Source: Prochlorococcus sp. AG-402-N08
Lineage (GTDB): Bacteria; Cyanobacteriota; Cyanobacteriia; PCC-6307; Cyanobiaceae
DNA length: 64,000 bases
Assembly (NCBI GenBank): GCA_003216535.1
Contig: QCIS01000003.1
Coordinates: 95,263-159,262, forward strand
Reading direction: 5' to 3'
How positions within the stretch are numbered: position 1 is the first letter of the stretch; every line of letters starts with the position of its first letter. The notes under the pieces are model-generated. The model searched no databases. It saw only the letters and a program-made list of their open reading frames with translations, and was not told the DNA's origin. A program made the translations under genes and the position numbers. Of this stretch, positions 38,615-44,290 are shown piece after piece.

Positions 38615-39763
38615 TCAACGTATCCTATTCAAAGATATTTCTTTTTGCCTCCAGTATGTCTCTTTTTTAATCAAACGTTGAAATTGATTTTTTAGCTCAT
38701 TTATTTTATTCCTTTTAATAGAAAGATTTAAATTTTTAAACTCTAACTCTACTTTAGATATATTAAAGAAAAAAATACTAGGAGGTTCATCTTCTTTTAA
38801 TGATGGTTGATTTACATTAAATTCGAAAATAATAACGAAAGGATGTGGATGTTTTATCATCAATTTTTTGCTAACTAAATACTCAAAGGAATCTTTAGAT
38901 ATAATCTTTTTTATTAAATTTGCCTTAAATAATTCTTGGTTAATCTTGTATGAAAGATTCAATAGTAAATTTTCTAATGACTTGTCTATTAAATCAAAAT
39001 TATTCAGACTTTGATATTTAGGTGAAATATCCATTTTATTAATATTGTCTTTTTCTGAATGTCTTAGTTTTTCAACCTTTGACTCTTCTATTAATTCAAT
39101 TAGGGAGGAAATAAGTTGTTTTTCAACTCCTAAATTTTCAATAATATTTTCATGAGATAAATAATTATTATGGTCATTATAATCTAAATCAAGTGATACG
39201 AATTTCTCATTATGATCAGCTTTATAATATTCAGAAGTATTAGAAATATCTTTACTAATCTGGAATTGAATAGGATCTTTTAATTTAAAATCATCTTCAT
39301 ATTGAAATTTGTCTTTTTGGTCATCCTTTATTTTTGCAGAACTACCTACTAGACTTTTAAAATTAAGTTCCTTAATTCTGTTTTTTTCAATTTGATTTAT
39401 TTTTAATTGTTCTACTGTTAATAAAGGCAAATTGGTATAAATAAGATTTCTTATTTTTCTTTCAAAGAGACAAAAAAATTCTTTTTTATTTAAGGAATTA
39501 TCATTAAATGATGAGTAATTATATATTTCATTAAGCCCTTTTTCTACAGAAATATAAAGAAGATCTCTTACGAGATTAAGATAACATTCATATTCCTTAT
39601 ATATATTTCTAATTAATCTTCTTTTTTGTATTTCTGCTCTCTTTAATTGAGAATTAAATTTATCTATATTTACAAAATTATTCAAATTATTCAAGGAACT
39701 AGTTTGATTTGATTGATGCAACCTCTTCAGCAAAGTCCATCTGATTTTTTTCGATACCTTCAC
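38615..39763 (-). CDS. Conserved hypothetical picocyanobacterial protein
   Basis: 382-aa ORF between recG and tsf. The annotated N-terminus overlaps tsf by about 65 nt, so the true start may lie further downstream. Confidence 0.6.
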
Positions 39764-40355
39764 CCAAGGTATATCTTGTAAAGCGTCTTACTTTGATATT
39801 TTCTCCAATTTTTGCAGCTGCTTGTTTAACAAGATCCTCAACAGTAAGAGAACTATCTTTAATATAAGGTTGTGCAAGCAAAACCAGCTCATTAAGTCTT
39901 TTAGCTATTCTCCCTTCAACTATTTTTTCTTTAATTTGTTCTGGTTTCCCTGATAAATCATCTCTCCCCATTTCAATCTGCTTTTCTTTCTCTACTACAT
40001 CTTCTGGAATTTCATCAATTGTGACATACTCAACATTTGGGCAAGCTGCTACCTGCATTGAGACATCCTTCAACAGAGATTGAAATATATCACCTCTAGC
40101 AACGAAATCAGTTTCACAATTTAACTCTATTAGAACTCCCACTCTTGATCCAGTATGTATATAACTACCAATTGAACCTTCAGCTGCAACTCTACCCGAT
40201 TTTTTTTCAGCACTAGCTATACCTTTCTTTCTTAACCATTCCAAGGCTTTATCGACATTTCCGTCAGTTTCGTTAAGTGCTTTTTTGCAATCCATCATTC
40301 CTGCACCAGTCTTGTCTCTAAGATCTTTTACAAGTTTTGCTGTAATGTTTCCCAT
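39699..40355 (-). CDS. tsf: Elongation factor Ts
   Basis: [28 protein letters not shown]. Confidence 0.95.
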
Positions 40356-40398: not shown

Positions 40399-41103
40399 TT
40401 AATTGTTTCTTTCTGCATTAGAACCCTTTCTGCCTTCATTTATAGCATCTGCAAGTCTTCCTAAAATAAGTTGCACAGATCTAACGGCATCATCGTTACA
40501 TGGAATAGGAACTTCACACAAATCTGGGTCGCAGTTTGTATCCAACATTGATACCAGTGAGATGTCTAATTTCCTGGCTTCAAGTACCGCATTAGATTCT
40601 CTTCTCTGATCAACTAAAACAACTACGTCAGGTAATCTTCTCATGCCCTTAAGACCGCCTAAGTATTTTTGTAATCTTTCAAGTTCTCTCCTTAAAACTG
40701 CAGCTTCTTTTTTAGGTCTCATTGCTATTGAACCACTACTTTCCATTCTTTCCAAATCTTTTAATCTTTCGATCCTGGCTTTCATTGTTGTCCAGTTAGT
40801 CAACATCCCTCCTAGCCATCTTTGATTTACATATGCAGCTCCGCATCTAGTAGCTTCTTGAGCTACTACATCTGATGCTTGTTTTTTTGTACCTACGAAT
40901 AGGAAACGTTTACCACTTTTTGCAGCATTTCTGGTCCATTTATACGCATTGTTCATACACAATGCCGTTTTTACCAGATCAATAATATGAACTCCATTTC
41001 TAGCACAATATATATACTTAGACATCTTGGGATTCCAACGTCTAGTTTGATGCCCAAAATGAGCACCAGCTTCCATCATTTCAGATAGTGATACAACTGC
41101 CAT
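40399..41103 (-). CDS. rpsB: 30S ribosomal protein S2
   Basis: [40 protein letters not shown]; upstream of tsf. Confidence 0.95.
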
Positions 41104-41116
41104 AATTTAAAAAAGG

Positions 41117-41180
41117 GTTTCGGGTTAGCCTCCATCTGACGGGGAATTTATATTAATAAATCACCCGAAACTGTCAGATG
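41117..41180 (-). ncRNA. Candidate H-type pseudoknot in the rpsB 5' leader (possible S2 autoregulatory element)
   Basis: On the minus strand: CATCTGAC (41180-41173), GTTTCGGGT (41171-41163), GTCAGATG (41140-41133), ACCCGAAAC (41125-41117). Two perfect complementary pairs of 8 and 9 bp, interleaved. Confidence 0.7.
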
Positions 41181-41199
41181 TGTGGATTTAATTTCAAAT

Positions 41200-41208
41200 A
41201 TTCTAGCA
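41200..41208 (-). promoter_or_regulatory. Candidate extended -10 promoter for rpsB-tsf
   Basis: Minus strand TTGCTAGAAT contains TGnTAGAAT (extended -10-like), about 20 nt upstream of the pseudoknot. Confidence 0.45.
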
Positions 41209-42375: not shown

Positions 42376-43104
42376 TTATATTAGCTCACTATGAGCACTA
42401 TATATTTTACCATCTTCCATATTTAATATCCTATCCGCCATATCAGAAATTCTTGGATCATGAGTCACCATAAGTACAGAACAATTTTGCTCTTTTGCTA
42501 GTTTTCTTAAAAGGGTTACTATTTCTCTTCCTGTGACGCTATCTAAAGCAGAAGTTGGCTCATCAGCTAATAAAAGTTTTGGGTTAGCAGATAAAGCTCG
42601 AGCAATTGCTACTCTCTGTTTTTGCCCACCAGATAAGTCATTTGGTAACTTTTTATGATGCTCCTCTAATCCTACTGCTGACAACCAATTCCGTGCTATT
42701 TCACGTCTTTGCAAATATGTTAAACCTTTTATTAAATCGGCGCCCATTTGAACATTTTGTTCTGCTGTTAAACATCTCAGAAGATTGTGACCTTGAAAAA
42801 TCATTCCAATACTTCTTCTAAGAATCTGACGCGTTTTCCTTGATGCTCCATTTAATTGATTATTTAATACAGTTAAATCCCCACTTTGGCAGGTTCTCAA
42901 GGCACCAATTAAGGTTAAAAGAGTCGTTTTACCGCATCCAGAAGGTCCTTTTAAAAGAACCAGCTCTCCTTTATCAATATTTAAATTAACGTCATTAAGA
43001 ACTTGTTTTTTATTCTCATTTTTTCCATAAAAGTGACTTAAATTATTTATTGAAACTGTTTTAAAGTTTGTAACATCGTTTTTTAATTTATTAGTTTTAA
43101 CCAT
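42376..43104 (-). CDS. devA: DevA-family ABC transporter ATP-binding protein
   Basis: LLKGPSGCGKTTLLTLIGALRTCQSG, LSGGQKQRVAIARAL, LLADEPTSALDSVTGREIV; next to devC and devB. Confidence 0.85.
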   Translation of the reverse strand: MVKTNKLKNDVTNFKTVSINNLSHFYGKNENKKQVLNDVNLNIDKGELVLLKGPSGCGKTTLLTLIGALRTCQSGDLTVLNNQLNGASRKTRQILRRSIGMIFQGHNLLRCLTAEQNVQMGADLIKGLTYLQRREIARNWLSAVGLEEHHKKLPNDLSGGQKQRVAIARALSANPKLLLADEPTSALDSVTGREIVTLLRKLAKEQNCSVLMVTHDPRISDMADRILNMEDGKIYSAHSELI

Positions 43105-43117
43105 TTATATTTAATTA

Positions 43118-44290
43118 TTAAAAAATTTCGGCAGGATCAGCGTCAACTAATTTACGCATCGCAACAGCAGCGGAACCCATACACATTAATAAAACTAATA
43201 CAAAAATTAAAATTGTTTTATCTGCATCCATAATAATTGGGAGTTTGGTAGATTTTCTTATAACTGAGTAAAGTACCTGACCAGAAAAATAAGCAGGTAA
43301 ATAACCAAATAATGCCAACAAAAAACCCTCTCTAGCTACAACAAAGAAAAGAGATTTAAGTCTATAACCCATTGCCAATAAAGTGGCATACTCTGGGAGG
43401 TGGTCTGTAACGTCACTATAAAGAATTTGATAAACAACCACACACCCTACAACGAAACCCATCAATGCTCCCAAACTAAATATAAAACCTATTGCAGTAC
43501 TATTTTTCCAATAATTCTTCTCAAATTCTATAAATTGATTTTTTGTAAGAACCCGAACATCATTTGGTAGTGAGTTATTTAATATTCTTGAAATCAATTC
43601 AGAATCAGATCCTTTTTTTAGCTTTACTAAACCAATTTCTATACTTCCAGGAGGATTAGCAGGAAAAAGTCTTAAGAAGGTTTCTCGGCTAGTTATCAAA
43701 TTACCATCTGCACCAAAAGATGGTCCCAACTCCACAAGGCCTTCAACAATTACTCTTTTCCCAGCGACCTCAGTCTCAACTTTTTTTTCTGATAAAAACC
43801 ATTCTTCTATTGGTCCAAATTCAGGTCTAGATAGTTTGTCAAAAAGAACTCTTGATGGGTTTCTCAATTTATAAGCTTTCCTTGAGAATCCATCATCTAA
43901 AAGAAGTGAATCGGAGGGATTAAAACCTAATGCAAGTATCGATCTTGTTTTAAGATTTTCGGGATTTCTCCAAAGTAAATAATTTAGATTAACTGGAGCC
44001 GTTTTTTCAACATTTTCTAATGCAAGAGTTTGAATCAACCTTCTTTTTGGGAATCCACTCATGCTTATAGAACTTTTTGATCTGGGACTTATTAAAACAA
44101 GATCAGCATCTAAAAGTTTATGAATAGTTACGCTCGTGTCAAATAACCCATCTCTGAAACCTAATTGCATAAACATCAAAATCCCTGCAAAACTTATTCC
44201 AGCTATGGCAACTGCCAGCCTTAATGGTTGCCTAGTTAATAACAACCAAGCTAATGGTATTTTTCTGAATTTTAAAAAAGAAAAACTCAT
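43118..44290 (-). CDS. devC: DevC-family ABC transporter permease
   Basis: Multi-TM protein: PLAWLLLTRQPLRLAVAIAGISFAGILMFMQLGFRDGLFD; FtsX-like C-terminal TM region. Confidence 0.88.
   Translation of the reverse strand: MSFSFLKFRKIPLAWLLLTRQPLRLAVAIAGISFAGILMFMQLGFRDGLFDTSVTIHKLLDADLVLISPRSKSSISMSGFPKRRLIQTLALENVEKTAPVNLNYLLWRNPENLKTRSILALGFNPSDSLLLDDGFSRKAYKLRNPSRVLFDKLSRPEFGPIEEWFLSEKKVETEVAGKRVIVEGLVELGPSFGADGNLITSRETFLRLFPANPPGSIEIGLVKLKKGSDSELISRILNNSLPNDVRVLTKNQFIEFEKNYWKNSTAIGFIFSLGALMGFVVGCVVVYQILYSDVTDHLPEYATLLAMGYRLKSLFFVVAREGFLLALFGYLPAYFSGQVLYSVIRKSTKLPIIMDADKTILIFVLVLLMCMGSAAVAMRKLVDADPAEIF

Follow-up and report, generated by a model that had tools for sequence, protein, structure and literature searches.

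The element studied here lies on the minus strand of a 64-kb window, by which we mean the whole stretch of DNA that was analysed, and is followed by rpsB, tsf and, farther along, recG. The first-pass annotation had described interleaved perfect inverted repeats of 8 and 9 bp in front of rpsB, and both their sequence and their coordinates are exactly as claimed (Table 1). The 8-bp repeat corresponds to helix P1 and the 9-bp repeat to a pseudoknot helix, and the hairpin P3 within the intervening loop varies among lineages. Seven nucleotides (GAGGCTA) separate the P1 3′ strand from the pseudoknot 3′ strand; their GAGG is about 26 nt from the rpsB ATG and thus outside the Shine-Dalgarno (SD) position, and it probably forms a conserved internal loop with the CACA/CGCA opposite. 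Elsewhere in the window, a 382-aa reading frame (38615–39763) lies between tsf and recG, its start overlapping the end of tsf, and has no NCBIfam family match. At 42376–44290 a DevA-type ATPase and a DevC permease are encoded; they belong to an ABC exporter family that takes its name from heterocysts, here in the genome of the non-heterocystous genus Prochlorococcus.

Table 1. Features of the rpsB leader and the genes that follow it, in window coordinates
Feature	Position	Strand	Basis or remark
Extended -10 TGCTAGAAT (TGnTAnnnT)	41208-41200	minus	promoter element upstream of the fold
Unpaired CACA/CGCA immediately 5′ of P1	41181..41184	minus	every distinct core has CGCA or CACA here; invariant columns
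P1 5′ strand CATCTGAC	41180-41173	minus	helix list, covariation
Pseudoknot 5′ strand GTTTCGGGT	41171-41163	minus	helix list, pairing in the 33 representatives
P3, short AT-rich hairpin ATTTAT-TAAT-ATAAAT inside the 22-nt loop	41146..41161	minus	helix list, minimum-energy fold
P1 3′ strand GTCAGATG	41140-41133	minus	CCC junction of the Syn/Pro family directly 5′
Conserved GAGG after P1 (TGGAGGC)	41129..41132	minus	invariant columns; shared with the E. coli leader (L228)
Pseudoknot 3′ strand ACCCGAAAC	41125-41117	minus	followed by 13 nt, then the rpsB ATG (41103)
rpsB, ribosomal protein S2 (uS2)	40399..41103	minus	TIGR01011, E 7.7e-98
tsf, elongation factor Ts, second gene of the operon	39699..40355	minus	TIGR00116, E 2.5e-66

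The topology of the repeats is by itself weak evidence, since 6 of 3000 dinucleotide-shuffled versions of the 131-nt leader contain an interleaved 8/9-bp pair and since the 64-kb window as a whole holds 17 such pairs, a number that would suit an origin of the repeats by chance and without function. What decides that the element is real is conservation, not topology. We gathered the sequences preceding rpsB in 80 Prochlorococcus-like contigs and in genomes sampled across both the phylum and the family, and extracted the cores with sequence anchors alone, an extraction scored on pairing having been discarded because it would select for structure. This yielded 136 of 142 leaders of the Prochlorococcus/Synechococcus (Syn/Pro) family, many of them close relatives drawn from the 34 family genera sampled, so that counts over this set call for corresponding caution, together with 58 of 61 leaders from other Cyanobacteriia. 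Those that escaped extraction were mostly incomplete, had a single anchor base changed or had a longer loop; in L144 and L123 the anchors are altered.

A covariance model (R1) built from 33 cyanobacterial sequences has exactly one match in 63 of 66 Cyanobacteriia genomes and none elsewhere in those genomes, and all 63 matches have the orientation of rpsB and lie 7–18 nt upstream of it. G082, G086 and G132, the three that gave no match, carry the variant leaders L145, L144 and L148, respectively. With default filters R1 found no match in 78 genomes from outside the class but within the phylum; with the filters off, a weak match (E 0.0019) to a shorter form of the leader appears at 308–392 of L149, from a genome of another class. 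A blastn search of a phage collection with the window leader gave no match.

Comparison of the 33 representatives shows that the six core pairs of P1 are paired in 100% of sequences and that four of the six have undergone double changes (CG/UA, UA/CG and GC/AU). Counting both helices, P1 and the pseudoknot, these sequences contain 41 double-change cells, a value reached in none of 500 shuffles and to be set against at most 9 when the partner strand is slid. The corresponding figures for 89 distinct cores are 179 and at most 37, with the P1 counts depressed by a few rows of the anchor-extracted core set that are out of register. P1 is real, proven by covariation. An origin by chance is already refuted by this covariation, and with a conserved position and covariation across about 70 genera we give it practically no weight.

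The pseudoknot helix behaves differently: its seven pairs are 98% paired in the 33 sequences and nearly invariant. Compensated forms are UGGGU/ACCCA in L144, CUACGGGU/ACCCGUAG in L145 and GGGGU/ACCCC in E. coli, and such compensations occur only in deep lineages and in comparison with E. coli. Because the strands barely vary within Cyanobacteriia, support for the helix there comes down to conserved sequence, and a single strand that binds a protein would be conserved equally. The pseudoknot is thus supported by conservation and by a few distant compensations. The first-pass annotation had named a lack of compensatory changes in homologous leaders as grounds for abandoning its fold; such changes are found for P1, and for the pseudoknot they are few and confined to distant lineages. 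RNAalifold alone returns the pseudoknot helix and omits P1, since nested folding cannot accommodate both helices, and crude energies make the pseudoknot no more than roughly equal in stability to the best nested fold.

To identify the element we compared it with known S2 leaders. The Rfam model RF00127 (t44) matches the window over its whole length with 30 bits (E 2.2e-4), a score below its gathering cut-off of 44, and in the opposite direction R1 finds the E. coli rpsB leader with 26 bits (E 6.7e-6). The conserved primary sequence, CACA ... GGGU ... UGGAGGC ... AACCC, is present. On these reciprocal matches the element is the rpsB (S2) leader, a cyanobacterial branch of the rpsB/t44 family, and the proposal that it is the cyanobacterial equivalent of the E. 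coli S2 autoregulator is borne out by a covarying fold and by homology in both search directions. RF01815 (rpsB) has no match in this genome at E 0.001. At curated cut-offs Rfam gives no match across the window, and in some other cyanobacteria RF01815 reaches 26–31 bits, under its gathering cut-off of 40. A scan of 151 genomes of the family with RF00127 under stricter filters gave no match, even in this genome, and is therefore not taken as a sign that the leader is absent. RF00127 also matches Thermotoga maritima, a control genome, whose phylum is unnamed in the rpsB-motif section of Meyer et al. 2009 (PMC2704228).

Both the type of element and its occurrence in this phylum were known before, and what is new here is lineage-specific detail. 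The rpsB motif that Meyer et al. 2009 (PMC2704228) reported from Alpha- and Gammaproteobacteria, Cyanobacteria, some Firmicutes and a few other groups is composed of P1, a variable P2/P3 and a pseudoknot between J2-3 and a 3′ extension of P1. The paper gives the pseudoknot as five base pairs and describes P2 as absent or very short in Cyanobacteria. RF01815 presumably derives from that work, the gene name being what the two share. The leader in the window resembles the motif in P1, the lack of P2, the short and variable P3, the pseudoknot between junction and 3′ extension and the location before rpsB, and differs in the length of the pseudoknot, which is 9 bp in Syn/Pro and 7 bp in most other Cyanobacteriia as opposed to five. 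With the t44 leader of E. coli it has in common CACAC..., P1, the GGGGU/ACCCC strands, GUGGAGGC and a position upstream of rpsB-tsf. The E. coli leader has 24 nt, with an SD among them, between the pseudoknot 3′ strand and the ATG; here the interval is 13 nt and lacks an SD. It is also comparable to the rplCD, rplJ and L11 operon leaders of Prochlorococcus and Synechococcus (Axmann et al. 2005, PMC1242208) as an autogenous ribosomal protein leader from cyanobacterial genome comparison, although rpsB is absent from the main text of that study.

The transcript is predicted to start at about 41193, roughly 10 nt 5′ of the conserved CACA. The extended -10 motif TGNTANNNT occurs within the 55-nt upstream stretch of 136 of 136 Syn/Pro-family leaders (7 expected) and 57 of 58 other cyanobacterial leaders (4 expected), that is, in 193 of 194 overall against about 11 expected, at a nearly fixed distance, mostly 32–36 nt before CGGGTG. 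This pattern shows that the predicted promoter and the S2-leader fold are conserved as a unit, and the near-fixed extended -10 supports the earlier suggestion that the leader begins a few nucleotides before the fold. Among the papers searched, none has a mapped rpsB transcription start for Prochlorococcus or Synechocystis.

Several features set the Syn/Pro family apart. All 43 distinct Syn/Pro cores have a 9-bp pseudoknot helix, whereas most other Cyanobacteriia keep the inner seven pairs but not the outer two. An SD-like tetramer at -20 to -4 of rpsB is found in 0 of 136 Syn/Pro leaders vs 58 of 58 leaders of other cyanobacteria. Such tetramers precede 7 of 52 window ORFs of at least 120 aa, compared with 12% of random positions; as they are no commoner before ORFs than background, the missing SD is a genome-wide trait, and this check ruled it out as a peculiarity of rpsB. 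Without an SD the pseudoknot, with its 3′ end so near the ATG, is the main structure adjoining the start codon. A CC in the P3–P1 junction, 5′ of the P1 3′ strand, is kept in 109 of 109 distinct Syn/Pro leaders. This conserved CC(C), at 41133–41144 of the window, is specific to the Syn/Pro family and can pair with the GGG of the pseudoknot, and the nested minimum-energy fold does pair the two in 86 of 109 Syn/Pro leaders vs 6 of 53 other cyanobacterial ones. The pseudoknot length, the absent SD, the near-fixed promoter distance and the CC junction seem unreported, as we found no earlier description of them.

The two pairing states are near-isoenergetic by a crude estimate, and one may ask whether the Syn/Pro leader is a two-state switch. 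In the on state GGG would pair with CC(C) beside P1 and leave the stretch before the ATG open, and in the off state, selected by S2, it would pair with the ACCC before the start codon to form the pseudoknot. We consider such a switch unlikely. A contact with a protein or within the tertiary structure would explain the conservation of the CC equally well.

As to function, a 2024 review (PMC10931766) describes repression of rpsB-tsf in E. coli by S2, aided by S1. Control there is translational, by a mechanism that is unclear, the ribosome binding site lying beyond the operator; in-cell probing found that the operator has an architecture in common with the S2 sites on 16S rRNA. By homology, S2 autoregulation through the leader is very probable in cyanobacteria too, and with high confidence we regard the element as one that acts in cis for autogenous control of the rpsB-tsf operon, in the cyanobacterial branch of rpsB/t44. 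Transcription would start about 10 nt upstream of the fold, and the leader would form P1, the small P3 hairpin and a pseudoknot of the P1–P3 junction with the stretch just before the start codon. S2 in excess over 30S subunits would bind P1 and the pseudoknot, perhaps together with S1 as in E. coli, and stabilise them; the S2-bound fold would block ribosome entry, and S2 and EF-Ts would drop together. Binding and repression by S2 in cyanobacteria are inferred, as are the block of initiation and the role of S1.

Two other modes of action were weighed against this one. The leader could act by transcription attenuation, through a terminator and antiterminator, instead of translational control, and a weak terminator-like stem was indeed called at 41180–41162. 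This stem has seven pairs, three of them GC, and overlaps P1 and the pseudoknot 5′ strand, its tail is ATTTATTAAT with no T run, and GC-rich sequence replaces the AT-rich loop in other members of the family; as control in E. coli is, moreover, translational, we think attenuation very improbable. Alternatively, the element could be a conserved enhancer of translation or a determinant of mRNA stability that does not respond to S2. The GAGG is conserved, and another recruiting element would be useful to a Syn/Pro rpsB that has no SD, but the element coexists with a normal SD in other cyanobacteria (58 of 58) and in E. coli, where regulation by S2 is known, and the SD is missing across the genome, not just at rpsB. 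We hold this explanation to be just as improbable as attenuation.

These results show the S2 leader to be an ancient control element common to Proteobacteria and Cyanobacteria. Almost all photosynthetic cyanobacteria have it, even though the curated models of Rfam fail to find it in them. The leader of Prochlorococcus, which has no SD and carries a longer pseudoknot near the start codon, is also useful in practice, as a simple system in which to study the repression of initiation by S2.
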